Positions 1,016 through 63,519 of a stretch of DNA of 64,000 nucleotides are shown here, piece by piece. The position numbers and the translations under genes were made by a program. Each line of letters opens with the position of its first letter. Within the stretch, counting starts at the first letter, position 1. Source of the stretch: Climacium dendroides (lineage: Eukaryota; Streptophyta; Bryopsida; Hypnales; Climaciaceae); contig OX467090.1 of the NCBI GenBank assembly GCA_950106755.1, forward strand, positions 5,208,001-5,272,000. The letters are read 5' to 3'. The notes under the pieces are model-generated. The model did no database searches. It worked only from the letters and a program-made list of their open reading frames with translations, and was not told the origin of the DNA.

Positions 1016-3712
1016 GTAGAACTACCCATTACCCCCATTTATCCAATTCCCCCACCTACAGGTTCCTCCCATTTCCGTCACTAGCCCACGATAATCTTAT
1101 TCATCCATGATTATGATGGCAATGCACTGGGGAGTGGACACATCCGCCCACGCTTCAACAATGGTCTGGTCATGCTTTACCAAGGGTCTACTCACAGTTT
1201 TACATTTCAGCTTTGTAAATGACCTATTAGGATTTCTTTTCGTGAGTTTGAGTGTTATTTTTGTGTGTGTTTTGTTTATGCTTTTGTTTATCTTTTGAGT
1301 GAATGATGTTCCAAATGGGTAATTTTGATGTATATTAACCTATTGGAGGGTCAGTTTTTGAAGTTAATTTCCAAGTCGGGGGTAGTGGGGGATGCTACTG
1401 GGAGGTGCGGAGTTTCAGTCGTAATTCAAAATCCAAGTTGGAATTGCAAACTGTGTATTCCAAGTGGAATGGTCTGGGGTAATTTCCAAGTCGGATTTGC
1501 CTTGTGCGTGATAGTCGTATCCAGTTGGTTTGCGAAGTGCAGTTGTTATGGTGTGTGATTCAAGTTGGTTGTGTAGGGAGAGAGTGCCAATTTGGAAGTT
1601 AGGTTTTTCAGTGCAATGGGCGGTTGTTGTTCGAGGTTCCTATTTGATAGTTCGTGAATTTTGAGATGATGTCCAAGTTGGTTGGGAAACTGCCTGACTT
1701 GGGGTTAAACTGAAGATTTCCAAATTGGAAGGCACCCAGTGTTGAGAGAGTCCGCTGCGAGTCCCAGCCGAGTTGGTGCTGTGTATTTTCGTTTGTTTGA
1801 GTGAGTCAAGCAGGTGCTTGATTTTTTTGTTTGCTTGAATGCATGTGTGTGTGGAATTTGTGTCAAGTCAAGTGTGGCTTGTGTGTTTTCCAATTGGGGA
1901 GTGTTTGTGATTATGTCTGTATAAGTCCAAGTCGAAAGATGTAGATGAAGGCCAGTCCTGGTGTTTCTCGTGGAGAGATGAAGATCTGAGTGAAGATTTG
2001 CAGAGAAGCTGTGGAGTTTGATGAGCTGAGAATTAGATTTCATACCAAATTGGAAGTTGAAGAGTTTGGGTGATGTCACGAGCCTGTGCTGTGGTTTATA
2101 AGTCCAATTTGGGGAAGATGAATTGCAGTATGGACTAGAATTTTCCAAGTAGATTTAATTTGCTGTGAGAGCAGATTGGAGATCTAGTTGGCATGGTGAA
2201 GTAAAGTTGGAATTTTAGATTCCAAATTGGTTAAATGCCAAATGTTGAAGAAGGAAGAGTGTAGAAATTTCTCGTGGAGAGAGAAGAAAATATCCAAATC
2301 GGAGTGAATCTGTGAGCTAATTGGAGATGTTATGAAAAATAAAATAAAAATGTGTAAACGGTGATTTATTCACCAACTCGGTTTAATATGATAGAGATTC
2401 ATATTCAGTTGGTGTTGTTATGTGTAATGCGAATTATATGTTTGGTTGTGATGTAAGTCAATTTGAGGTTGTTTGTATGAGATTTCAAATTGGTTTGTAT
2501 GTGCGTCCAAATTGTGTGTGAGGCAGAAGCAGTTGGAGTGTATATGGTTTTGAATGCTGAAATAGCAGGGCCTAATAGGATATGAATGTTTATGATGTAT
2601 TCATTAATCTCCAACTTGGTCTGAGAAGTTAAAGTTTCTGTGTCCAATTGGGCAGTTGGAACTCTATTGTCACAGGGAGTTCCCAATTGGTTAATATACC
2701 GAGTGGAATGTGTTAAGTCCAATTTGGAATCAGAAGTGTTTGGTAACTGAATGATGTCTTCAAAGGAGTCCAATTTGGTGATTGGAGTATATGCAATTAA
2801 TATGAGAGGAAGTGATATCTCATGAGTGAATTAAGTGAGAGAAAAGTCTAAAAAAATGGAGAGTAAGAAAATTTCCGAGTGGGTGGAAAGAATGCAAATT
2901 CTGTGAATGTCAAAGTTTTGAAGGACTGAGGTGTGAAGCTGAGAGTAAAAATACCAAATTGGTCAGGAGATATTAATGCCGTGAAGGCAGGAGACAAGAC
3001 CAATTTGGTTGGTGAGCTTTCTTGAGTCGGGTGTAAGGATAACTCATTGAAAAAGGAGCCTCGTGATTAATTAAAAAAATCAAGTTGGAGAAAGGAAGGA
3101 AGTAAGTGCTGAGCCCCAGTTGGAGTTAAAAGATAAATCACAAAGCAAATGCCGATTTGGAGGAAGACAGCAAGATAAGCTTCGCCAAGTTGGAGGATTG
3201 TTGTTGTATTTGTACCAGGAAATGCCGATTTGGAGAAAGACGAAGGAGTCCAATTTGAAGAATAAAGATCAAGCCTAATTGGGTGATACTTAACCTTGGT
3301 GGTTATAAGAGTGAAGAGTAAAAAGAATATGAAAAAAATAAGTAAATAAAAGAATTAACAATTAATCACGTAATAGTGAGTTAATTAAATTAATTCTAGT
3401 TGGAAGTATGACTTAGTTGGGTATTTTGTTTCCCTATTAGTTGTCTTGTTGTCGATGTAGAAGTGATCCTATTAAAAATGGCCTCCCTAGGAACGAACTT
3501 TACTATTGATTTAGAAATTCTCAATTAGGATCTAAATCTTATCTACAAGCTTTGAAAAATCACAAAAAATTCAATTCTTGTCAAAATGTCTTCATTTTTT
3601 TTTTGCAATTGACTTCTCTCAAACAATTCCATCTCTGAAAAATATGAGAGCTCATAAATAGCTTCTCCAAAGTACATAGATAGCAAATCTGTATGGTAAT
3701 GGGTAGTTCTAC
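1016..3712. mobile_element. Small TIR element interrupted by a solo LTR
   Basis: The 18-mer GTAGAACTACCCATTACC at 1016-1033 recurs as its exact reverse complement at 3695-3712. The solo LTR at 1214-3547 lies between the two. Removing the LTR and one copy of its AGCTT duplication leaves about 358 bp, a typical size for a non-autonomous terminal-inverted-repeat element. No coding sequence is seen in the outer parts, and its own target duplication is not evident. The true ends could lie slightly further out. Confidence 0.55.
1214..3547 (+). mobile_element. Solo LTR-like element, copy 1, with dense CCRANTYGG motif
   Basis: The unit begins TGTAAAT and ends CTACA, so it has the TG...CA ends of an LTR. 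It is flanked by a 5-bp direct duplication AGCTT (1209-1213 and 3548-3552). It is homologous along its whole length to the inverted copy at 58266-60385, for example at 1619-1790 and 3290-3540. No internal duplication, primer binding site or gag/pol frame is present, so a solo LTR left by recombination is the simplest reading; a non-autonomous element is possible. By eye it holds about 20 exact matches and a dozen or more near matches to CCRANTYGG, roughly one every 50-100 bp from 1371 to 3284. Exact examples start at 1371, 1433, 1587, 1673, 1720, 2045, 2222, 2611, 2954 and 3185. Confidence 0.85.
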
Positions 3713-4222: not shown

Positions 4223-4520
4223 TAACAAAATGGGTTACAAAAAAAACAATGCATTCAACTAGGTTAGAAACAAATTCAAATGTTTAAGATTAAAAATCTC
4301 ATGAAATTAGCATTCTACTTATTTAAAATAATGTTTTAGTTTCCTCGTTGTGTTTTGAATGCCTTTCATGATTTGTGATTTAGAAATGAGAAGACAAATC
4401 TTTATATACATATGGGTGGTAGGTGGTAAAGTAAACAATGTGGGATAAATAAATTAAAGTTAGTAAAAGCTCAATCACTCATAGTTAAGTCAAATTAAAG
4501 CAAAAATTCTATTTGAAGTA

Positions 4521-4861
4521 AAATTCTAAGCCTCATTTAGTCTTAGTAAAATAAAAAATTTCAAAAACTTTGGACTAAGAAAAGTTGGGAAATCTATTTG
4601 AATTTTATCCTTAAAAATTTGTTTGATATTTTAAGCCTCCAATCAAAAGTTATGAAAAAATTTCAAAGAGAGGTTGAAAGGGACTTTTTCTATTACATTT
4701 TGAAACATTCTCTTTAAATTTTGTTCAGAGCTTTTGATTGGAGGCTTCAAATATCAAACGGATTTTTGGAAATAAAATTCAAATATACTTCGTAACTTTT
4801 CTTAGTACAAAGTTTTTTGAAAAAAATTATTCTATCATGACTAAATGAGATCTGAAATTCT
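4521..4861. repeat. Foldback repeat family, copy 1
   Basis: Inverted arms start near AAATTCTAAGCCTCATTTAG and end near CTAAATGAGATCTGAAATTC. The arms continue through TTTTGATTGGAGGCTT and its inverted partner AAGCCTCCAATCAAAA. It is non-coding. The same palindrome recurs at 15881-16240 and 62915-63292. Flanking sequence at about 4410-4520 is shared, in reverse orientation, with 63510-63600, so the full unit is longer than the palindrome. Confidence 0.75.
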
Positions 4862-4865
4862 GCAT

Positions 4866-6068
4866 AAACATAATTTTGACATTTTGACAATAAGTGGTTT
4901 AACACTCTTTTTTGAATTATCCCATATTCTTTGAAGATTTATGGTGAAAAATCAATTTCAATATAAAAACGACATCTCCCAACCTTCATTCCGTCAAATG
5001 TTTCCTATTCAATTCCTTCATAGTGCTACCAAAATTAGTTTTTGGATGGCGGAGGGTTAAATGACATTGGGATTTTGATTCAAAGGATTCTCATGGTGTT
5101 TAACAAATCATCTTAATGTTTTTTTTTGAATATTTATTTGGCTGGTCTGAGATTTAGAAGGAAAAAAAAACATAAACCATATGTTTGCTACCACGGTCTT
5201 GGCACCCGACACTGGAGCTTACTTTAATTTCCCTTATGGATGTTGTTCGTAGATGATGCCTCTCGAGAAGGAGAGGCAACCTCTCTAAAGGCTACTGAAT
5301 GTAAGTTATGTCAATTCAATTCCTCGGGACAAGTCAACAATTCCAACATAAGATGTGAACTTGAGTCATGATTATAGTATATAGCTATCTCTTCAAAATT
5401 TTGTGGATATATTATAAAAATACCAAACTACAGATGCGATGTTTCAAAAGTCATCTATACAACTTATTCCATTTTATAGATATCATTGTCGCTAAATACA
5501 ATGTTGTATTTGGGACTATGGAGTCCAACTTATATTAGAGATTTTGGTGTTTTTAGCCCCAAATTTTGATTGGTGTTTTTGGGCCCTTGTTTGACTATTG
5601 TTGTGGTCATTTCAAGTTCATGACGGTTTTGTGAATCTCATTGCACCTTGTGTCTTCTTGTGCTATTTATTCTAAGTCTTTTTAGAGTGTTGAGTGTCCA
5701 TTTCTACTACCCCTTGTGAAATTGTTGTTCTCACATTCTTTAGGAGTTCCTTGTCCCTCTTTTTCTTCTCATTGTATTAATTCTAAAGCAACCCCATTGT
5801 ACTTTGACAATGCCACTTTTGGGGGGGGCCTTTCGTGTAGAGTTTTGAATGTTGTATTAACCCATCATTGTTCTAACTTGAGACACTCCGTATGTCCTAG
5901 TTACCATGTTCAACTAACCTTATTTTGAACTTTGTAAGTATTTTTGTAGGCCCCATCGGGATGACAAAGCTTTGAACCCCCCTAGGTCTTGAGGTCTTAG
6001 CTTGTGTGTTAAAAACAAATTATTAAACGATAGAGTCTGAATGATAGTAGTCAACAAAGTCTTAGATT
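4866..6068. other. No gene recognised; possible old LTR
   Basis: This is AT-rich non-coding sequence. The part from about 5500 to 6057, just upstream of a primer-binding-site-like sequence, could be a decayed LTR, but I cannot fix its boundaries. Confidence 0.35.
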
Positions 6069-10238: not shown

Positions 10239-11205
10239 TTAACCCCTAAAGGACCATTGTCCCTTCGGGGGACAAATTGGATTTCGGGTAGGTACCTACG
10301 GGCTGAAATTTTGTCATGATTTTTTTAAACTTTTTTTGAAGATAGGAAAACTGATGAGCTTTGTGGGAATATAATTTTTTTCACATTTGGTGCCCGGAAA
10401 CAAAAGTTACAACCAAATAAGCTCAAAGTAGGGGACGGGGGGCAGTCCGGGCAGCAAAAAAAATTTTACAAAATTTTGAATTTTTCTTTTTTGGATTTTT
10501 CTTCTTGTAGATTATATTTTTGTCTACATGGGAAGCTTTGATTCATTCCATTTGGACATATTATGAGAAAGTTATGGACAATCTTGTTTATCGGATAGTT
10601 AGAGCATCTTCCTGAAAAAATAACTTATAGAATTCATTTCTGAATGCAATTTTTACAATTTTTCTGAAAAGAAATTTTTACAATTTTTCTGAAAAGAAAT
10701 TTTTACATGATTTTTTTTGCTTGCTAGAACAATCTCACCATTGGGATTAGTGCATTTTAATTCCATCTTAAAGATATTAATAATTTAGATTTTCCTTCAT
10801 TCTCATACCTACTTCTACTTAACAATTTTTTTAAGCATGAAAATTATTTTTTTTATTAAAATTTTCTTTTTCCCTAGACTCTCAACTCAATTTCCCACAA
10901 CAAGGATTTAAAGCTCAAAACTCTGTAGTGCAAAAAGTTTAAGTTAAAAAAGTTCAAAGTCATATAATCCAGTCCTGCAAGATGCTGAAAAAATTGTTTT
11001 TTTCACTTTAAATGCAAATATTTTTTAATCTATGTGGTCAAATTTTCTGAAATTTTTTCCACACATTTCCATACTAGTAAGGTATAAGATCCTACGGTTG
11101 GATGTGCAAAAAAAATAATTTTCAAATTTTTTTACTCTTTGCTACAGAAATGACAGTTTTGAGTGTTTTTTGGCAGAAATAAGGCCTTGGTCCTTTAGGG
11201 GTTAA
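10239..11205 (+). mobile_element. TTAA-family non-autonomous transposon, longest uninterrupted copy
   Basis: The ends are TTAACCCCTAAAGGACCA and TGGTCCTTTAGGGGTTAA (the right one preceded by T), a near-perfect inverted pair. The 967-bp interior is non-coding. It has landmarks shared with other copies: GGAAGCTTTGATTCATTCCA near 10530, ACCTACTTCTACTTAACAA near 10809, CTCTCAACTCAATTTCC near 10880, and GACAGTTTTGAGTGTTTTTT near the right end. A 30-bp block is tandemly repeated near 10655-10710. TTAA at both borders with CCC...GGG ends resembles the piggyBac pattern, but no transposase is present, so the superfamily is inferred only from the ends. Confidence 0.75.
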
Positions 11206-15190: not shown

Positions 15191-15880
15191 TGTGGATTGT
15201 CAATAAACATCATGTGGTTACTATTATTTCATGAATGCACACATTAATTTACAACTTATTGCATGGTTATGATGCACACTATTATTGCAAAGAATTGACA
15301 CTACTTTGTAATCAATATTAACTATGTGACTTCTATATGTTAATCACAAGTGTGCAAAAGACACAAATTATGCACAAAAAATTATTAGCTTTGTTATGCA
15401 TTTTATGTGCGTTGAAGTACACAAAACTCCACGACAATAATGTCATTTCTGTTTGTATTACAACAATACTTATTAAATGATATCAATGTTCCAAAAAATA
15501 TGGTCAATGTTCAATTGTTGATCACAATTCTAATTAATAGTAATTTTTTTCTTAAATAAATTTCTTGCATTTTCTTTGTCAATATTTGATAAGTATACAT
15601 TTTAATAAATTCTAATTTGCAACTTAATAATTGCACAAAATAATTGAACTAAATCCATCATTATTGTAAGCCATTAAATTTTAGCTTGAACTAAGTTCAT
15701 CAATAGGTTACCAAAAAATTCAATGGCACAGTGACGGAATCAATTAATTGATATTTAGTGTGAATGGAGTGTGGAAGGCTTCTTTTTATATTGAAATCCA
15801 TTCAATGAACACTCAAAGGATATGACTTAACTTAAAGATGAGAGCTTACCTGCTAATTGTTAAAATGTAGGACTTGTGTG
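15191..15880. other. AT-rich spacer, no gene recognised
   Basis: No coding or RNA feature is seen. The last 100 bases share 'aaagatgagagctt' and neighbouring words with the sequence just left of the 62915 foldback, so this is probably an outer part of the same repeat. Confidence 0.45.
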
Positions 15881-16240
15881 TTGAAAGTATAAATTCAAAC
15901 CTCATTTAGGCATAGTAAAATAACTTTTTTTTTTAAACTTTGAATTGAAAAAAGTTGATAAATCAAGTTAGTTTTTATCTCCAAAAATGTGTTTGAAAGT
16001 TATAGCCTCCAATAAAAAGATATGGACAATGTTCAAAGACAGGTTGGAAGGGACATTTTTTTTACAGTTTTAAACATTCTCTTTGAATTTTGTTCATGAA
16101 TTTTAATTAGAGGCTCTAAATCTCATATATGATTTAAAAAAAATTAAAGATAGCTTGATTTACCAAATTTTTTCAATTCAAAATTATTTGAAAAGAATTA
16201 TTCTACTATGCCTAAATGAGGTCTAAATTTCTACTTTCAA
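15881..16240. repeat. Foldback repeat family, copy 2
   Basis: Inverted arms run from TTGAAAGTATAAATTCAAAC to the matching right arm ending AAATTTCTACTTTCAA, with CTCATTTAGGCATAGTA pairing with TACTATGCCTAAATGAG. The layout is the same as at 4521-4861 and 62915-63292. It is non-coding. Confidence 0.75.
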
Positions 16241-16599
16241 TACAATCTTGAGTGCTTTTCAATCGACTTAGTACTAAAATGTGAAAGATAAAAAAAATGA
16301 AATGTTAGTGCAATAATTTTGCAAAGACATGTTGTGTGATTGTTGCACTAACTTTATATGCTTTAAATAAGCATTAATGTTGCATGATGTCAGTCATCGA
16401 CCACTAAACTACTAAAGTCATATATATTTTGTCATACATAGTTATCATGCAATTTTAGCACTTCAAACTCAAATATCAATGACATGACTAAATTGCATGG
16501 TATTAATGAATGTAAATACTATATTGTAACAATATTTTCAAATGAATTTATGTAACATAAAAGTAATGTTCAACAATAATCGTACATTTATTGTTGACA

Positions 16600-20610: not shown

Positions 20611-21176
20611 TCAATAGAAAAAATGAATTCTCTAGTAGTGTTAAAAACACATTGAGGGCTAAATCTCCTACTAAAACACTTCTTAGTCACTCATAATTTC
20701 TTGAATTGATATGAAATTTTAACCACACAAATTAAACTAATATGTGCAACTTTCTCAAAAACATTTAACACTACTAAAGAAAATGAATTCTTTAGTAGTG
20801 TTAAAAAACACATTGAGGGTTGAATCTCCTAGAATGCTTCTCAACCACTCATAATTTCTTCGATTGATATGAAATTTTAACCATACAAACTAGACTATTA
20901 TGTGCAACTTTCTCAAAAACATTTATTAAAAACACACTGTATGAAGAAGAAATAGGCTGCCAAAGTTTTGATATGAAATTTTAACCACACAAACTAGACT
21001 ATTATGTGCAACTTTCTCAAAAACATTTATTAAAAACACACTGTATGAAGAAGAAATAGGCTGCCAAAGTTTTGATATGAAATTTTAACCACACAAATTA
21101 GACTATTATGTACAACTTTCTCAAAAACATTTATTAAAAACACATTGTATGAAGAAGAAATAGGCTCCCAAAGTTC
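20611..21176. repeat. Tandem repeats, including three copies of a 104-bp unit
   Basis: The word TGATATGAAATTTTAACCA occurs at 20865, 20969 and 21073, giving a period of 104 bp. The 104-bp unit also contains GTGCAACTTTCTCAAAAACA and GAAGAAGAAATAGGCT. Upstream, an older copy at 20611-20770 shares 'ttagtagtgttaaaaacacattgaggg' and 'actcataatttctt' with 20790-20860. A palindrome AACACTACTAAAG...CTTTAGTAGTGTT sits at 20767-20802. Confidence 0.85.
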
Positions 21177-21380
21177 ACCGTAATTGATCCAAAAATGTCC
21201 ATGTTTGGCTGAACTTTGAATTACTCCCAAACATTCAAAACACCTTGGATTGGCATGCTTCAAGGGGCCATCAAATTTTACTGAAATCAGACATTAGATG
21301 AAGGGTTTGAAATCAGACATTAGATAGAGATACAATCCCCCAAAGTTGAGCAATCAAAATGCAGTTTGGTGAACTCAAAT

Positions 21381-21540
21381 TGAACCTCTGAACATTTAAT
21401 GGCTCCCAAATTGGGATAATTGAACCTCTGAACATTTAATGGCTTCCAAATTGGGATAATTGAACCTCTGAACATTTAATGGCTTCCAAATTGGGATAAT
21501 TGAACCTCTGAACATTTAATGGCTTCCAAATTGGGATTGA
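21381..21540. repeat. Four tandem copies of a 40-bp unit
   Basis: Units start at 21381, 21421, 21461 and 21501. Each begins TGAACCTCTGAACATTTAAT and ends with CCAAATTGGGATAAT (the last copy is altered at its end, and copy 1 has one base different). Each unit contains one CCAAATTGG, the same 9-mer class that fills the two solo LTRs. Confidence 0.95.
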
Positions 21541-40222: not shown

Positions 40223-42367
40223 ATGGTAGAAACCGGTAGCGAGGATTCACACAGCAATGGAGATCTTCCTGCTTACGCAACAAATTCAACAAATTCAATT
40301 CATAGCACTGAAAGTAAGTACTCAATTTCATCTCTACTTGTTATTTATGGCAATATATAATGAAATTCAAGTACACAGAGAGAGTTCTATTGTTATTCAT
40401 ATGCTAGAGGCACTATTTAAACAAATTTCATATGCTATTCTATCATGTACTTAGTCTCTTCTAATTTGGGTTGAACGCTCCATTACTACTTTTAAATTTT
40501 GAGTGATGCTATTTAGCTTCTACTGGCCTTGGTATAATGACAATGGAAATCATACCTCATTGTTGGGAATGCCAAATGATCAGAATCACTGAAACTTCAA
40601 TCCTTCAAGATAGTTGAGAATAGTGTTGGCTGCTGCAATTGGGACAATAAAAGTCTGATGCCTTGCACAGTAACTTTATAATTCTGCCCATCTTTCTGTA
40701 ATAAGAACTAGCATTTGTCTTAGAATTTGCGTAATAATCAAGAGGGGAGGTCGGCCACATACTAGTTAGTATTTATCATAACTTACGTGCTTGAATTTTT
40801 TAATATGAGTATGTTGTACGTAAGAGGAAGAGAATTGCTCACTGTTCATCTTGGATGACAGTATTCTAGAAAAGCACACTTGATACTTTGGTTCAAAGTT
40901 TGATTCATGGAAGAATTCAAAAAAGGGATCATCTAAGCATCCATCGATCCATTGAACCAATTCATGAGGCAAATGAGAAGAGCTAGTTTCAATAATTTAA
41001 AGAAACTCATAGTTTTGTTATAGATACTTACCTTGACATTGATGATTCAACTTGCAGGTGCGCCTGGCCAGCCGATCTGTGTAACTAGTCAGAGGGGGAA
41101 AAGGAAGATGGGAACCATGGCCTCTACACCATGTGCACCTCGTCCACCTAAGCGACCTCGCAAGGAACGTCAACCAAATTGGACTCAAGTAGAGATCTCT
41201 GCACTCATCCGTGCAAAGCGTGAGAAGTTCTTTGACGAATTGGACAATGTTCATGAACCTAATCTCATGCGGCGGGAGAATACACAATGGAGATCGATTG
41301 CTGATAGGGTGATGGAAATATGCGGCCAATTGGCAGAGTGTTTTCGAGATTCTGGAGCATGCAAAGATAAGTGGGCTACACTCCTGGTAGACTACAAAAA
41401 AATACACGATTATCATAATGGCACTGGTATAAATGAGGACTACTGGTCAATGAACTCACCTAAACGTGCAACGAAGCATCTTCCTCGCAACTTCCTAAAA
41501 GAGAATTACGATGATATAGATGATTGGTTCCGCATTCGCCCGATCATGAACCCTCCGCATTCTCGTGATCTCAGCCAGCCTGGAGATGCTGTCTACAACT
41601 GTGCTACAGTATTACATCGTTACAATGTACCGAATGAGGAGAGCAACGATGCAGATCCTATGACTGGTGGAGGCATTAGTCTCGGCCTTGGAGCCTCGAC
41701 AAAAGTACCGGTAGTAATTCTTGCTCGTATATCTACCCCCACTAGTAGCATCCCTGGAGCAGCACCTACTCGTGTATCTACTCCCGCTTGCAGCAACCCT
41801 GGAGCAGTACCTGCAAATGCTCTCGAGGTCTTGTCATCTTCCGAAGCCTCTTTTCAGGAACTAACTCGAAAGTTTGGCAACACAGGTCATAGGCGGAAAT
41901 CTCTTTCAGGGTACACAAAAATTGCAGAAGTAACACAGACATCTAGTGACAAGCTTGTAAGCACACTGGAGAAATTAAACGAATGAGATACTCAATTGCA
42001 ATGGAAGATATTTCAAGAACAACTCAACTACAACAAAGAACAAGACTTGATTGCCCAAGAGAATGTACGTTTGACTCATGCCAATCAAGGTTCTCTTGTA
42101 CAAGCAATCACTGGCCTCACAAGTGTTCTAAGCCTTGGTTTGCGACCTCCAATGTATCCTCGAGCAGCATTTGGGGCTCCATCGGCTCACCAAATGTATG
42201 GAGGTCGAGCTCCTAATTGCCCTCCAAATGGAAGTCAAGCTCCAAATTACCCCTCAACAGAAGGTCAAACTTGGAATTATGCTCCTAATTACCTCCCTGA
42301 TGGTAATGTAACAAATCAATCTTCTACACCTCCTATTGAAGATGACGATGCTCCAATGTTCAACTGA
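40223..42367 (+). CDS. Harbinger ORF1, trihelix/Myb-SANT-like DNA-binding protein, with in-frame TGA
   Basis: ORF1 proteins of this superfamily bind DNA, and characterised members assist nuclear import and targeting of the transposase. Two exons: 40223-40313 and 41058 onward, joined in phase 1 across a GTAAGTA donor and TTGCAG acceptor. After a basic stretch (KRPRKERQ) comes a trihelix-like domain at about residues 60-170: NWTQVEISALIRAKREKFF, then WRSIADRVM and ACKDKWATLLVDYKKI. A TGA at 41984-41986, after about 339 residues, ends the frame. The same frame then stays open to 42367 for 126 more codons with a plausible glutamine-rich amphipathic helix (QWKIFQEQLNYNKEQDL) and a Pro/Asn/Tyr-rich tail. 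I therefore read the TGA as a recent nonsense change or, less likely, a readthrough site. If 339 residues is the natural length, the downstream frame is chance, which its composition argues against. Confidence 0.8.
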
Positions 42368-42498
42368 GACACTTGTGGATTCACCTGTATGATGACAACA
42401 ATCATTTACATGCAGATAAACATAAAGTGTAGTATTTGCTTTGTTGCTAGAATTAAAAAAGAATTGAAAAGGTGTAGGTAATGTGTACTTACTTTTCA

Positions 42499-43749
42499 TC
42501 AAAGAATGTTACGTTGCCTGCCCAGATACAGTCCCAATTCTCGCCGCATTTCTTGGGCCTCTGGAATTTGAAGGTTGTCTTCTTGTGGTGGCGGTAAGTC
42601 CAAATCTTCAGTATCATTGTCATTGGTTAAACCCTCAATCTGCAATCGTTCCATAAGTAGCTCTACCTCCTGAGGATCTTGACCGAGGAGCATGTTGTGA
42701 AGGTAGCAACAGGCCATCACAACATCTGGTAGAAATGTCACATGAAGCTCAGATTTTTTCATTAACTCCCGAAAACTTTGTTTAAGTATTCCAAAGGAAT
42801 TTTCAACAACACTCCTTCCTCGCTTGTGCTTTCTGTTGTAAACTTCCTCTAGCACGGTCAACCTCCCTTCTCTGTGCGGTATCATAAGCCAGGGAAGAAG
42901 GGGATATCCTTTATCTCCGAGGAGATAAGGAGAAAATCCTTCATGACGAATTGGAGGACCATTGATGAGATTTCCATCTCTGGCTTTCCTGTAAAGGCCA
43001 GACCTCCTCAAAACTCTGACATCGTTCATGCTCCCTGGTAGTCCCACATAGACATCGAGAAATTTCTTTTGTCTATTGACAACTGCTTGACAAACCATGC
43101 TATATCCATTTGTCTTGAAGTAAAAATAATCCTCTGAAAAGTGGCTTGGCTTTGAGATACTAAAATGGGTCCCATCAATAGCGCCTATGATTCCTGGCAA
43201 CCCACACCATTCTTGAAACTCTCCCATATTGACTTGTGCTTGAGTATGATCTGGCCATTTGATTTCATTTCTGAAGCATTCGTTAATAGCAGCCACAACT
43301 TCTCGCAAAAGTTTCGACACGGTGGATAATCCTATAGCGAAATTTTCTGACACTATCAATAGTGGAGCTCCTTGAACGAGCTTGTAGATTGCAACTGCTA
43401 CTCGAACACAAACAGGAATTGCTTGGCGAAACTTAGTATCTTGTTTTTCAATGTAGGGCTGCAGAATGCGTGCCAAGTTGAAGACTGCTTGCTTTGTCAT
43501 TCTGAAATTGTCTATCCATCGCTCGTCATCATACACGGTGAGTAGAAAAATCGAGAACCAGACCTTGGAACATGGTTTTACCCACCACCCTAAGTCCTTG
43601 TCCAACAAAATCTCGGCATTACTAATACGGAAATTATGTAGTACAGACGAGATGATATAGTCCATTTCATTCAAGGTGCTATGCACACGATGGAAAGGTT
43701 GAATCCATGTTGCATCTTCATCTCTTTCCGTCTCTTCAGATGTGGCCAT
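42499..43749 (-). CDS. PIF/Harbinger transposase (DDE superfamily endonuclease)
   Basis: Catalyses excision and integration of the surrounding element. The open frame extends up to 43899 (466 aa). I prefer the start at 43749 (MATSEE, 416 aa), because the first 50 residues look non-conserved and the context there is AACATGGC. Numbering from the longer frame: a helix-turn-helix-like segment at about 165-205 (IYKLVQGAPLLIVSENFAIG), the first catalytic Asp242 in GAIDGTHF, a conserved Asp293 in GSMNDVRVL, Asp329 in GDKGYPLLPW, and Glu366 in SVVENSFGILK. All acidic motif positions of the family are present and there is no frameshift or stop. It runs convergent with ORF1, with 131 bp between stop codons. 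A 5' untranslated intron between 43750 and the right end is possible. Confidence 0.93.
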   Translation of the reverse strand: MATSEETERDEDATWIQPFHRVHSTLNEMDYIISSVLHNFRISNAEILLDKDLGWWVKPCSKVWFSIFLLTVYDDERWIDNFRMTKQAVFNLARILQPYIEKQDTKFRQAIPVCVRVAVAIYKLVQGAPLLIVSENFAIGLSTVSKLLREVVAAINECFRNEIKWPDHTQAQVNMGEFQEWCGLPGIIGAIDGTHFSISKPSHFSEDYFYFKTNGYSMVCQAVVNRQKKFLDVYVGLPGSMNDVRVLRRSGLYRKARDGNLINGPPIRHEGFSPYLLGDKGYPLLPWLMIPHREGRLTVLEEVYNRKHKRGRSVVENSFGILKQSFRELMKKSELHVTFLPDVVMACCYLHNMLLGQDPQEVELLMERLQIEGLTNDNDTEDLDLPPPQEDNLQIPEAQEMRRELGLYLGRQRNIL

Positions 43750-44529
43750 GTTACTATGAATGTTTTGAAGTAGCAGAATTAGAGCTGTGAGGAACCCTAC
43801 AACCTCCGCAGGCTCAGAAAACAACATTCTGAAAGATGTAAAGTAAACCAAGAATTCACCGGGAGGGCCACTTTCACTCCACCTACCCACATACATCACA
43901 AGGCATAATTATTAGCAACTCAACTAGAAAATTAGCAAATTCAAAAAGAAACAAACTAAAGAACTCAACCTCCAACACAAACTCAACTGCACAAATTAAT
44001 GTACAATAGGGAAAGGTTTGTCGCATGGTTTACTTGAAGAAAATTACTTCAGCCCAATTCAAATCAACAACGGCTCTTCCTAAACTAAGACACAATCAGC
44101 TCAACAACATCACAAGAATGCTCAAGAATGCCGAACAAAAAAAGCGCACAATATTCAAACCCTTGCAACTCGTACTGCAATTTCCAAAACGAATCACAAG
44201 AAATTTGGGCGCCTAGGAATTTGAATTCAAAATCGGCGAGCACAGTTGCGAGCTTAGAAGAAGAGAGAAGTAACTTAGTGTGAAATTGGCGCTCTAATGT
44301 GAACACGTCAATACGCATACGGTGATAGATAACCAAAAAACCCTAAACTACGCTCTGGTGTGAAGAGTAGAAAACGTAACCCTACCTTGGCAAAACCCAC
44401 AAACCTTCGTGAATTTGGAAAAACCAGTTCCAATATGTGCCGTGTAAACAAGACAAGATATTTTGAGAACTTGCGATGTTAGACTGTATCACTGTTGCGA
44501 TAAGTGAGCCTGGTGTGCAGTGACCCTAA

Positions 44530-57854: not shown

Positions 57855-60790
57855 TTAACCCTAACATCTGAAGACCATTTTTTTGTCAAAAAACACTTAA
57901 AAGTCAAAACCATTATTTTCAATGCGAATAACAATTTCTTTTAAACATTTTTTTCTTTTACATATCAAGCCATAGGATCTTTTACTAGACTAGTATGAAA
58001 TGTGTGGAAGAAATTTCAAAAGCTTTGATGATATCTATTATAAGATGTAAACATTTAAAGTAAAGAAAATAAGGTTAATATTTGCTTCTAGTCTAACTAA
58101 ATTATAAGGCTTTGAATCCTCTTTAATTAAAATTATTGCACTATAGATTGTGAATTGTAATTTTTTGATGTTAGAAAATTGAGTTGAGAGTTCAGGAAAT
58201 AAAATTGAAATCAAAATGTGATTTTTATTCTTCAAAAATTTGTTAAGTAGAAGTAGGTACGATATTGTAGTTAAATCTAGATCCTAATCGGATTATCTAA
58301 ACAAATAGTTTAATTCTGTCCTAGGGAGGCAATTCTAATAGGACTACTTCTACAACGACATAAGAATGTACTAATAAAGAGTTAAAACACACAAGGAATG
58401 CATACTTCCAACTAGTATTAATTAAATTCCTCACAATTTCTGTAATAATTAATAATTTAATTATTCACTCCACTCTTAAAACCACCAAGGTTAAGTATCA
58501 CCCAATTGGAATTGATCTTTAATCTTCAAGTTGGATTCTTTCGTCTTTCCACCAAATCGGAATTGGTGTTGCTGCTGGTACATGCTCAACAACGATCTTC
58601 CAACTTGGCTAGGCTCAGCTTCCTGTCTTTCTCCAAATCGGATATGTCACACTTCAGCTGGTCCTTGTCTCCGGCTTTGGCTACAACCATGGTCTCCGAT
58701 TTGGATTCTTTTATCTCCTTCTTAAACTTTAATGTGACTCTTGCACTTGCAGAATTTATCCTCTCCTTTTACTAACTTGGAATTTTATTTTATTTTATAT
58801 ATTTTTTTATCACAGTCTTCTCTCTCTCATACTATGTTGATTTCCTAATTGGATAAATTAATTTCTCACACCCATTCGGAAACTCTCAAATTTGAGACCT
58901 ATTGCTTCGGCTTAACAGACCAACTTGGGATCCTAACTTAGACAACATTCAAACTTTATAAAACCAACTTGGATAAGCACTCATGACACCATGCATTCCA
59001 GATACAGAGTCTTTTCAATTTGCTCATATCCATAACTTCAATCAACTCTCAGTCCAATTTGAATTTCAACAACAACTGTCAATTCCTCACTTGACCAATT
59101 CGGCACTTATTCCAATTTCCAAATTGAAACCACGCATACAACCACTCAGCGATTTCAATTTAAACATACATTCTCATTCAGCACAACCAACACCTATTTG
59201 CTTGAATTACACTTTTCATTAAGCCGAATTGGTGAGCATATCACCGTTAAAAATAATGTTTTCTTTAGCAGTTAATCTTACTGCTCTTGCTTTACTCCAC
59301 TTCAACTTTCTGATTTGGATCTCCTATTTGCTATCCCAACAATTAACTCTCTGACTGATCCTTCCAAATCAGACTTCACTCCATTACCCAAATTGATCTT
59401 ACAGCTATAATCTATTCGGGCTCACATCACCCATATACTTTTCAGCTCCGAATTGGATCCTATTTCCATCACTTAATGCTTAATAAACTATCACTGTACT
59501 TCTCCAAATTGGAAATCAGCTCCCTACAGTGACTCTCACCACTCTGCATAACATTTCCGACTAGGACACACTTCTTAATCTGCTCCTCATTTCATCCTCA
59601 TTCACTTCACCGCTTAACTCCACATCACCAAATTGTTTCCGCTTCAAACTTCATCATCTGTACACTTCTCCAAATTGTATCCAACCACTCCAGAGGTACA
59701 TACTCACACTCACAACACACCAATTAGAACACACACTCATCAAACATCTGACTTGGAAAAACACACACACACACAAACAAGCACAAAAACATCAAATACG
59801 CAGCCAACTTGGACTGGGACTCGCACTGGACTCTCTCAAACAGTGGGTCCCTTCCAAATCGGAAAACTCAACTTTAAAACCCCAAGCCAGGCAGTTCCTT
59901 AACCAACTTGGCATCACCTCAAAACTCGCAAACTGCCCATTAGGAACCTCAAAAATAACCGTCCCTCAACTACACATACAAATTCCCAAATTGGCACCTG
60001 CAACACCGCGCACAACCCTAACTGCCGACCACAAGCAAACCAACTTAGAAACCACAACAGCTCCGACCTAGTTGGCTACAGACAGTTCCTACTTGGACAA
60101 AAACACAGAACATTCCAACTTGGAATTGTCATCCTGCATTACAAGTAGGAATTATCCTCAGACAACTCAAAACTGCCTTCACTCTTCGAATTGGCTTCCC
60201 CACCAATCCCATCACCGTGGCTCATGCTTGACTGCATCCGGATAAACACAAAGAAATAACTTCCAAATTGGTTAATAACATTCAAAAATCACCCATTTGG
60301 AACACCAATCAAACAAAACATAACTAAAACCATATAAAAACACACCAAAAAAAATGAAACTAAAAATCCAAATAGGTTATTTACAGATATTATAAGGAAA
60401 ATTAAATTATTGATAGCTCTATGATGGAATTGAAGCATACTAATCCCATTTGTGAGATTATTCTAAAAAACAAATTAAATCATGTGCAATTTTTTTTAGA
60501 ATTTCTAAAATTAAATTTATAATCAAATTTAATACATTATTCTCTCAAAAATTGATAAGATTGCAAGTAAAACAAGAAGTTTCAAAACTTTCACATCACA
60601 TATCCAAATGGATTAAACCAAATCTTTCCACATAGACAAAAATATAATCTATAAGAAATATTTTTAAAATTATTTCAAATTTTTGTGAATATTTTGCCGC
60701 CTGCCCTTACTTGTTTTTGGCTTATTGTAGTATAATTTCTGCTCTTAAGTACCAACTAAAATAAAAATTATATGCCTAGAAAGCTAATAA
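57855..60790 (-). mobile_element. TTAA-family transposon split by a solo LTR
   Basis: The left border is TTAACCCTAACATCTG. Read on the minus strand, 60790-60386 and then 58265-57855 together follow the 10239-11205 element in order: 'gattatatttttgtctatgtgg', 'ataatctcac.aatgggatta', 'acctacttctacttaacaa', 'gaactctcaactcaattt', 'aagatcctatggcttgat'. The solo LTR at 58266-60385 interrupts it. The far end near 60790 is eroded and has no recognisable CCCC/TTAA border. Confidence 0.7.
58266..60385 (-). mobile_element. Solo LTR-like element, copy 2, inverted, with dense CCRANTYGG motif
   Basis: The plus strand starts TGTAG and ends TTACA; on the minus strand this reads TGTAAATAACC ... CTACA, as in copy 1. 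A 5-bp duplication GATAT flanks it (58261-58265 and 60386-60390). Homology to copy 1 is clear through most of its 2.1 kb, for example the block containing GAGAGAGTCCAGTGCGAGTC on the minus strand near 59830 against GAGAGAGTCCGCTGCGAGTC near 1745. About 16 exact CCRANTYGG words were counted by eye, including 58600, 58920, 59095, 59504, 59803, 59904, 60116 and 60263. No coding region; open frames here are not conserved with copy 1. Confidence 0.85.
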
Positions 60791-62914
60791 ACTTTCTACT
60801 AGTGTTAGTGGAATTCTTTCACAAATCAAATATCATATTAGAATCCTTCTTTCCATCTTCAATCCACAATAAATCCAAGAAATACATAATAGGGAGATTA
60901 GGCTCTAAAAAATTTGCAAAGACTACAAGACATCCTTTAGTAGAAATATCATTGAACTCATCAATTGGTAAGTAAAAAAAAATTAGAACATCTAATTCTA
61001 TCCCAAACTTTGCTTTGAATGACACAAGAAAGACTAAATACCATTTTAATACAAATTTTTTTAATCATAATAAAGTTTTTTTTAGTGATGGGAGCTTTGT
61101 AAGAAAAAATGAGCACATAAACTTTGAAATTTGTAAAAAGGGAGATTTTCTTCCCCATGAAGTAGGCAACCCTAAATAAGGATAGCATTGCCTTGTCACA
61201 ACTATTGCAACTACAACACTCTTTTGCAAAAAAATATTTACCCTTGTACTTCATCCAAGACAATTTTTTGTGTTCTACAATTTTACCATGGTCTTATTGT
61301 TCAAATCTTTATATTTGTAAAATCCTCAATGGCATATGCAAACTTACTTCCACCTTTGGTACAATTCTTACAAAATCCTTCCCCAAGTCACAATTGAATT
61401 CCACTTAATCATACAACTCATACCAAGAATCTTTCCAATCTATATTGATTTTCTTTATGTCATTGGGTTCCTTATTAAGAGGTGTAATGGATGAATAAGT
61501 AAACCCATGCATGTCCATGAAGCCTCTACTAGATCCAACCCTACATAATGTATCTCTCATGGTTCTCTACTTTTTAGCCAAAAAAATTGAAAACTCCCCT
61601 CAAAATGATCAATTTTTTTTTCTAAAACATGTAGCAATTAAGAAGACTTTAAACTTTGGAGACCTTGAGTTTTAACAATCAGCAACAATACTTGAACACT
61701 ATAGTACAACCAATTAGTAGTAGCATGAATGAATATGGAATCAATGCTTGAGCGAGAGCATCTCAATGGCTACATCATCACTAAGTAGGATTAGGAGTAG
61801 CAGGCGGACAATACGACATCAATAGCAATGGGAATCTTGGAGTAAGAGTGGCAAAAATGGAGGCAACAATAATAAGGAACAACGTAGGAGAGGCTACAAG
61901 AGCTTGCTAGCAATGACAAGTAAGGAACCCTGATCCACCCAACCTAAATGAGTATACTCCTCCACAATAAGTACCCTCTTGATTGATACCCTAACTATTT
62001 CAAGTATAACTGTTGCCTTGCCTAGATATCAGTCAATGAATATTATCCTATGGCAACTAAAATTCACCAAGTGTTGAAAGCAAGCGAGTCAAATGTCCTC
62101 CAATTTTATGGGAATATTGGTTAATTTTTGACTTGACCAATTTCCTTCCGATTTTACATCCTTTGTTTTCAAAGTGTAGCTATAATTTTTCCCACTTTCA
62201 TTAGCTAACTTTGAACTAAGTTAGCTACCAATTTTTCCTAGCCATTGGTGTAGAGGTTATTAATGATAAGTTTCTGATATTGTCTACATGTTGCATGTAG
62301 CATTCAAGTTAGTGAACAGGGAGTTTTAGGGGGGACTCAACTTTTTGTTGTTCATTTCAAATGTCATTCGGCAGTTCACCATTGTCATTTGGTTGTTGCC
62401 TAAGTTTAGTCATTTGATTCGGTTAAAAACCTAATATTTTTTCACCATTCTGGTCATTTTTTAAAATTTTGCAAAAGCATTTGGTTAAAAAATTCATAAT
62501 TAAAATACAACTTAGTTCCAATACTAAGTTCAAGGCATCAATTCAACAAAATTTATTTGCACACTACCATACTTAGATAGCAAGCTTAGTTTAAAATTAT
62601 TAAGAAAAAGTGTCATTTTTTTTGCTAAATCTAGTTGGACCACAAAGACAGTCCTACAGATAAATGTAAACATGATTTGATGTAGATTTTTAAGAAAATT
62701 AATTATAATCCATTGAGTCAAAGACAAATTTATCATTTGACCATCTACTATTAAGAAATTTTTTGATGGCAAATTGAAGGAATTACTTGTTGGCATTTAG
62801 TGAGAGTAAATAGTTGAGAGGTCTTTTCAAAAATGAATTCTAGTTTGGGTTATAAATCCTTAAAGGATATGGGACAATTTGAAGATGAGAGCTTGATTGC
62901 TCATTGTCAAAAAC
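60791..62914. other. AT-rich DNA without recognised gene
   Basis: No protein family is recognised. The stretch near 61720-61960 is purine-rich and less AT-rich but has no convincing frame. Confidence 0.45.
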
Positions 62915-63292
62915 GTAGGAATTGTGATGAATGTAGAATTTCAAACCTCATTTTAATATAGTAGGATATCTTCTTTTAAAAAACTTTGAATTAAAAAAAG
63001 TCGGGAATCAAGCTAAGTTATATATCCAAATTTTTTTTGAGGTTTTGAGACTCCAACTAAAAGTTATAGACAAATTTTAGAGAGGGTGTTTGAAAATGTA
63101 AAAAAAAAATTCTTTCTAACCCCTCTTTGAAATTTGTCCATAACTTTTAATTGGAGTCTCAAAACCTCAATCGAACTTGTGCATATATGACTTAGCATGA
63201 TTCCTCAACTTTTTTTAGTTCAAAGTTTTTGAAAGAAGATATCTTATTATGAATAAATGAGGTCTGAAATTCTTCTTTAAACACAATTCCTG
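62915..63292. repeat. Foldback repeat family, copy 3
   Basis: The arms run from GTAGGAATTGTG through TAGAATTTCAAACCTCATTT on the left to AAATGAGGTCTGAAATTCTT and CACAATTCCTGC on the right. The internal pair GAGACTCCAACTAAAAGTTA and TAACTTTTAATTGGAGTCTC is perfect. It is the same palindrome as at 4521 and 15881. It is non-coding. Confidence 0.8.
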
Positions 63293-63300
63293 CATTTCAC

Positions 63301-63519
63301 TTAACCCCTCAAAACTCAAAGATCTCCTTGTTTGACCATTATAATCTTTTTAACAGTACAGTAAAAAGACGTGTCCTTTTCCCTATAGCCCCGGCCCTAT
63401 CTCTACTGTCAATCGGTACAGTCAATTTATGTAGATCTCATTTTATATGATAGTTTGATTGGAATGAATTGAGAAGGGTCTGAATTTTGGCAAATATAGT
63501 CTGGGCACTCAAGAGTTAA
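63301..63519 (+). mobile_element. TTAA-family insertion with an identifiable empty site
   Basis: It begins TTAACCCCTCAAAACTC and ends TGGGCACTCAAGAGTTAA. The flanks continue the foldback-family sequence: copy 1, read on the minus strand from about 4520 to 4470, passes straight through 'gacTTAACTATGAGTGATT', whereas here the same sequence is interrupted between 'cacTTAA' and 'TTAACTATGAGTGATT'. One TTAA in the empty site became two. The 219-bp insert is non-coding. Confidence 0.65.

Follow-up and report, generated by a model that had tools for sequence, protein, structure and literature searches.

Among the non-coding stretches of a 64,000-nucleotide (64-kb) segment of the moss Climacium dendroides genome (assembly GCA_950106755.1, contig OX467090.1, positions 5,208,001 to 5,272,000; hereafter the window), one LTR-like element raises a simple question: why is it filled with copies of a single short palindromic word? 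An initial annotation, made from the letters of the DNA, had recorded about 20 exact copies of CCRANTYGG in this element, and had suggested by analogy with the VANC proteins of Arabidopsis VANDAL transposons that they could offer a dimeric DNA-binding protein a landing platform. We analyzed the element, a second copy of it in the same window, and the distribution, base tolerances, layout and conservation of the word.

Two Solo LTRs of One Retrotransposon Family

The borders given for the element by the initial annotation proved exact. It is a complete solo LTR that begins with TGTAAAT and finishes with CTACA, and a second copy lies on the opposite strand near the other end of the window (copies A and B; Table 1). 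The direct duplications that flank the copies are identical at 5/5 bases in each case. When the flanks of copy B are joined, they form one continuous alignment to a related, unbroken repeat elsewhere in the window (71% of 632 columns) from which the insertion is absent. Neither copy has an adjoining internal region. The termini and duplications of both copies, together with the empty related site for copy B, identify the two copies as solo LTRs from a single LTR-retrotransposon family. A self-comparison of the 64-kb window (matches of at least 150 bp) yielded no further copies of the LTR, and one pattern taken from its conserved 3' block gave 0 matches to viral contigs.

Table 1. Coordinates of the two LTR copies and associated features in the window.
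Feature	Position	Strand	Remarks
Target-site duplication, left of copy A	1209..1213		AGCTT
Copy A, solo LTR	1214..3547	+	2334 bp, TG...CA ends
Main CCNANTNGG array, copy A	1223..3282	+	44 merged sites
Conserved 3' block of LTR, copy A	3262..3547	+	From A/B alignment
Target-site duplication, right of copy A	3548..3552		AGCTT
Paralogous empty site for copy B	10502..11126	-	Related unbroken repeat
Target-site duplication, left of copy B	58261..58265		GATAT (minus strand: ATATC)
Copy B, solo LTR	58266..60385	-	2120 bp, TG...CA ends, 40 merged sites
Target-site duplication, right of copy B	60386..60390		GATAT

Both LTRs contain antisense open reading frames (149 and 141 aa in copy A, 168 aa in copy B). 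We rejected the 149-aa and 168-aa frames as coding sequences, since the A/B alignment contains one-base as well as longer uneven gaps where they overlap. A TATA-like TTATAAG is found at about position 3303 of copy A, with TTTTAAG as its counterpart in copy B; the conserved 3' block probably comprises the promoter, R and U5, with the position of the promoter being our guess. The sense strand is strongly skewed in both LTRs (C 11%, G 27%), and about a quarter of all their C residues sits within copies of the word. By eye, copy A is surrounded by an inverted repeat, GTAGAACTACCCATTACC (1016-1033) and GGTAATGGGTAGTTCTAC (3695-3712); the LTR may thus have inserted into a small terminal-inverted-repeat element, for which inspection by eye revealed no clear target duplication.

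Other Contents of the Window

Open reading frames and Pfam matches identify a CLASP gene, which an unrooted tree places on the side of Physcomitrium, a placement that is ambiguous by CLASP alone and comes from a set of relatives whose length limit left out full-length proteins. The window also contains a phytoene synthase gene. Its top match overall is 89% identical over 91% of the length, while the match from Ceratodon purpureus is 92% identical over 86% and that from Physcomitrium patens 78% across the full length. These phytoene synthase matches settle the placement of the host among the mosses. On its own, the first exon of the gene hit no Pfam family. At 41024-43908, a DDE_Tnp_4 transposase (469-aa ORF, minus strand) adjoins a Myb/SANT-like ORF (320 aa, plus strand), a pair that we take to be of the PIF/Harbinger type. 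A related repeat of the MITE or hairpin type, about 450 bp long and an inverted repeat of itself, is present three times, at 4484-4942, 15783-16258 and 62852-63305. Three head-to-tail units of 104 bp (95-99%) occupy 20864-21175, with a 69% copy at 20706-20809.

A Dyad Word Is Concentrated in Both LTRs

Exact CCRANTYGG occurs 20 times in copy A (spanning 1371-3233) and 16 times in copy B, compared to six times across the 54.7 kb between the LTRs. First-order Markov models gave means of 0.08, 0.06 and 3.0, respectively, based on 100 resamples for each LTR, trimmed by a few bases at its ends, and on five for the inter-LTR DNA. The original estimate of some 20 exact words where less than one is expected is therefore borne out for copy A, as is that of a dozen or more near copies: words with one mismatch and clear of the exact ones number 14 in copy A and 21 in copy B. 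None of 15 control dyads occurred more than twice per LTR. When dyads of three or four bases with gaps from 0 to 12 were ranked, CCAA-N1-TTGG led the list for each copy (Poisson p of 7e-26 in A and 4e-17 in B), and masking of the motif left no comparable second word or dyad in the LTRs.

The most constrained part of the word is the A/T pair around its center. The inner A/T core was present in 29/31 words of the form CC-N5-GG in copy A and in 26/27 in copy B (55/58 jointly), compared to 11/86 between the LTRs. While the dyad character of CCRANTYGG was confirmed, this consensus had been too tight at position 3 and had not brought out the A/T core as the sharpest feature; we widened it to CCNANTNGG, i.e., CC-N-A-N-T-N-GG, in which the A/T core is invariant and the outer C/G soft. 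A symmetric EM model recognized about 103 sites in 4454 bp of LTR, with 53 (A) and 51 (B) at a posterior above 0.5, and 142 sites across the 54.7 kb between the LTRs, a density about nine times thinner. All these figures describe two LTR copies in one 64-kb window, and we refined our definitions of a site with the data already in view.

Four of the six exact words between the LTRs (21406-21534) belong to an array of four tandem 40-bp units at 21378-21537, each with CCAAATTGG; this array is probably a coincidence, a single word that was multiplied. In the literature searched, no paper carried the consensus in any of six IUPAC spellings. Exact words and other IUPAC spellings do have matches there, and in one case the passage concerned gives the word as the end of a probe.

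Base Tolerances and Half-Sites

Where just one key base of a word was wrong, the deviations were not evenly distributed over the dyad. Across both LTRs, the wrong base was the outer C/G in 36 such words, the inner C/G in nine and the core A/T in none, whereas the Markov means were 4.6, 4.5 and 2.8, respectively. The outer base was replaced by T in 25 words, by A in seven and by G in four. Position 3 of one half-site equaled that of its partner in 24/55 words (shuffle mean 24.6); the half-sites vary independently at this position and show no covariation. Variants of the word are also found near both termini of both copies (CCTATTAGG / CCTATTTGG and TCAATTAGG / CCGATTAGG), in copy A at 1223 and 3521 and in copy B at the corresponding ends.

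The Sites Keep Their Distance from One Another

For the analysis of spacing, a site was defined as a word with all six key bases right or with one outer base wrong (50 in copy A, 41 in copy B), and words shifted by no more than 2 bp were merged, leaving 47 and 40 sites. The 47 sites of copy A consist of those in the main array (Table 1) and three with a wrong outer base at 3395, 3433 and 3521. After merging, not one of the 46 start-to-start gaps in copy A or of the 39 in copy B was shorter than 15 bp, while a non-overlap null model gave means of 5.7 and 4.4 such gaps (P 0.003 and 0.006). The coefficient of variation (CV) of the gaps was 0.57 (A) and 0.50 (B), compared to 0.92 under unconstrained placement. 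The spacing, previously described as irregular, is indeed so, but this description has to be refined by the lack of close pairs. The layout looks like room kept around each site rather than like a repeat unit, and no helical phasing at 10.5 bp was detected (R 0.25 in A, 0.16 in B).

This result depends on the definition of a site. With exact six-key sites only, the effect was weaker (gaps below 20 bp, P 0.008 in A and 0.025 in B; gap CV, P 0.006 in A and a not unusual 0.36 in B). For CCRANTYGG alone, neither gaps below 20 bp (P 0.09 and 0.22) nor the CV were significant, but the smallest gap of 33 bp is large (P 0.003 in A, 0.027 in B). The looser EM set contained three close pairs in copy B (gaps of 6, 7 and 13) besides 1-bp overlaps.

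In both copies, the dense array stops about 20 bp upstream of the TATA-like box, and since it ends short of this box, it probably fills the U3 region upstream of the promoter. The three sites of copy A outside the main array are located past the box.

Conservation and Turnover between the Copies

According to the initial annotation, the words survive while the sequence between them has diverged, and it had proposed a comparison of words with their flanks. In well-aligned blocks, 83/86 key columns (96.5%) were identical between the copies, compared to 781/1046 other columns (74.7%) and 34/42 free columns within words; in these counts, for which blocks were chosen without regard to words, both directions are included and conserved words are entered twice. 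Counted in one direction at four thresholds, the difference between key and outside columns gave Fisher P values of 5.5e-5 to 0.036, while that between key and free columns inside words was weak (P 0.014-0.10). Hence, for two copies and their alignable blocks, the words are more conserved than their surroundings.

Over the whole LTR, the statement holds in part. In an alignment made with the sites masked, 21/47 sites of copy A coincided within 1 bp with sites of copy B; a circular-shift control gave a mean of 2.6, and none of 1040 shifts reached 21. The other 26, mainly in the middle of the LTR, had no partner within 1 bp, and in our first set of sites 23/36 lacked a partner within 2 bp in the other copy. 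Sites near the LTR ends are kept in place. In the middle, either density is held at different positions or the region is unalignable.

The copies differ by roughly 20-25% in alignable blocks (52 transitions, 53 transversions). The words number some 100 and hold about 200 core A/T bases, yet in none was the core alone changed, although a long period of free decay after insertion should have left such words in the solo LTRs. Most of what separates A from B was therefore probably acquired in lineages that were still alive, a stage at which the word is open to selection.

Alternative Origins of the Word

Could the word be a by-product of mutation or composition, generated by a decayed tandem array or by skewed base content? 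The skew of the sense strand would fit such an origin, as would small local repeats in copy A (25 bp at 92%, 21 bp at 95%) and TRF units of 11 and 22 bp (A) and of 2, 5 and 7 bp (B). However, dinucleotide-matched models produce merely 0.08 and 0.06 words where 20 and 16 are present, and we discarded skew as their source. In-register flanks of 28 words in copy A had an identity of 0.285, only marginally more than the 0.278 of random positions (8% of random sets were as high), and those of 24 words in copy B 0.280 compared to 0.276 (21% of sets). These values uphold the earlier view that the words are not a tandem array, and when both LTRs were searched for a tandem origin through their in-register flanks, by self-BLAST and by TRF, small local repeats were all that emerged. 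Gaps more even than random and the lack of words broken solely at the A/T core also speak against a by-product. This explanation, which we regard as extremely improbable, is largely contradicted by the data. A role at the level of RNA is hardly more attractive, and we judge it very unlikely. Retrotransposon RNA carries U3 at its 3' end, CCRA and TYGG could pair between words, and the words might thus be pairing or protein-binding elements in the 3'-terminal part of the genomic RNA; yet a loop of one base is too short for a hairpin inside a word, and position 3 lacks the covariation between halves. Moreover, CCRA is part of a complete dyad in 20/32 cases in copy A and 16/32 in copy B, compared to 6/377 between the LTRs. 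The two halves are thus held together.

Comparison with Known Systems

VANDAL elements are Mutator-type DNA transposons. Passages of PMC5735166 describe the motif of VANC21, YAGTATTAY, as packed into the non-coding DNA of VANDAL21, where its copies share one orientation and are often part of tandem repeats. It is rare in other transposable elements, and its density is thought to be important for recognition, according to passages of PMC5735166 and PMC10398659. The moss LTRs resemble this system in that a 9-base motif is crowded in the non-coding DNA of one transposon family and is rare elsewhere, i.e., in the rest of the 64-kb window. They differ from it as LTR retrotransposons with spaced, non-tandem dyad sites, whereas the VANC21 motif, as given in those passages, is non-palindromic; the moss word is palindromic and has unrepeated flanks instead of one orientation and tandem repeats, and LTR ends with 5-bp duplications take the place of VANDAL-type termini. 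We treat VANDAL/VANC as an analogy and not as a group to which these LTRs would belong.

Passages of PMC3907296 describe a heat-response element, nTTCnnGAAn, in the ONSEN LTR that is bound by HSFA2, with a 51-bp fragment comprising the complete element; they give the LTR as 440 bp in length and devoid of CG and CHG sites, and contain no description of tens of heat-response sites. The ONSEN LTR is thus, as portrayed there, a plant LTR whose binding motif is symmetric and serves a multimeric factor, as is proposed here. The consensus is different, however: the strongest dyad of the moss LTRs is CCAA-N-TTGG, and nothing comparable, nTTCnnGAAn included, was enriched after masking. Furthermore, the moss LTRs hold 36 (A) and 32 (B) CG sites, whereas ONSEN is reported in these passages to have none. 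We rejected an ONSEN-like avoidance of CG and CHG, with observed/expected ratios for CG of 0.52 (A), 0.50 (B) and 0.49 (between the LTRs) and for CHG of 1.11, 1.27 and 0.79.

Two families of plant factors were compared with the word. The CArG box of MADS-box proteins, CC(A/T)6GG, has the same CC...GG ends and an AT-rich middle, but it is 10 bp long with six inner bases, whereas the LTR word has five, with a free center and G/C allowed at position 3; the box misfits the spacing of the word. LEAFY is a homodimeric plant factor with the core CCANTGG, a dyad with CC...GG and an A-N-T center. Its CC lies at +/-2,3 of this core, compared to +/-3,4 in the moss word, and the site of type I LEAFY misfits the spacing. 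Mosses carry type II LEAFY, as stated in passages of PMC8742948 and PMC6588583 that give no DNA consensus for it; this type may be a lead. In the passages of PMC7466625, a paper on Physcomitrium transposons, the word 'motif' is absent.

A Candidate Landing Platform for a Dimeric Protein

The independent halves of the dyad, its obligatory core, its soft outer base and the lack of close pairs form the trace that would be expected from a protein dimer. Judged by sequence evidence, we consider it rather likely that the LTR carries a U3 landing platform, read by its density, for one dimeric DNA-binding protein that would drive or protect LTR transcription. The array, of roughly 40-50 sites, would serve a single dimeric, sequence-specific protein, with each half-site (C-C-R/N-A) read by one subunit. 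The A/T at -1/+1 would be obligatory, the outer C/G merely preferred, and the center and position 3 loose. Bound along some 2 kb of DNA ahead of the promoter, many dimers would mark the LTR by motif density, and transcription of the marked element would be switched on or kept unsilenced. Protein binding, the location in U3 and the activating or anti-silencing effect are all inferred, the last because the element would profit from it and the array could thereby be maintained in live lineages. The landing platform proposed by the initial annotation has thus gained support from the dyad, its independent half-sites and core, the lack of close pairs, conservation and the rejection of a build-up by tandem repeats; control of expression or silencing, like the analogy with VANC, stays a suggestion.

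Who might bind? Dyad sites with a loose center are common among plant dimeric factors. If a dimer binds, the chance that it is an ordinary moss transcription factor, with the array acting as a homotypic enhancer tied to tissue or stress, approaches an even one. The recruitment of HSFA2 to the ONSEN LTR through its heat-response element, described in passages of PMC3907296, provides a precedent, although about 40-50 sites with no comparable second motif go far beyond the 51-bp fragment reported there, and the literature searched provided no paper with any of six IUPAC spellings of the consensus. Our slight lean toward a host factor reflects a prior and not a result. Alternatively, again provided that a dimer binds, the autonomous element may encode a protein that binds its own LTR, reads motif density and strips silencing in the manner of VANC, a version that we find possible but rather doubtful. 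One short motif dense in the non-coding DNA of the element, with nothing comparable enriched, would fit it, and the retention of the word by two diverged lineages agrees with the density logic of VANC21 as presented in passages of PMC5735166. Against it stand the lack of an internal region in both solo LTRs and the orientation and frequent tandem arrangement of VANC21 targets in that account (PMC5735166), neither of which applies to the moss words.

The landing platform for a dimer would have its widest significance if density-coded self-recognition had evolved here independently of VANDAL, through spaced dyads, a dedicated dimer (element-encoded or domesticated), anti-silencing, and sites that turn over at a held density; we regard this as unlikely on present data. 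To our knowledge, recognition of a transposon's own non-coding DNA by motif density is known from VANDAL only, where the motif was built up by tandem repeats. If true, an LTR element dense in a dyad site of defined tolerances, without tandem repeats, would indicate that this strategy has a wider distribution and can emerge through point-wise selection. The sharpness of the consensus would allow the binding protein to be fished for directly in mosses, organisms in which the removal of genes is easy.
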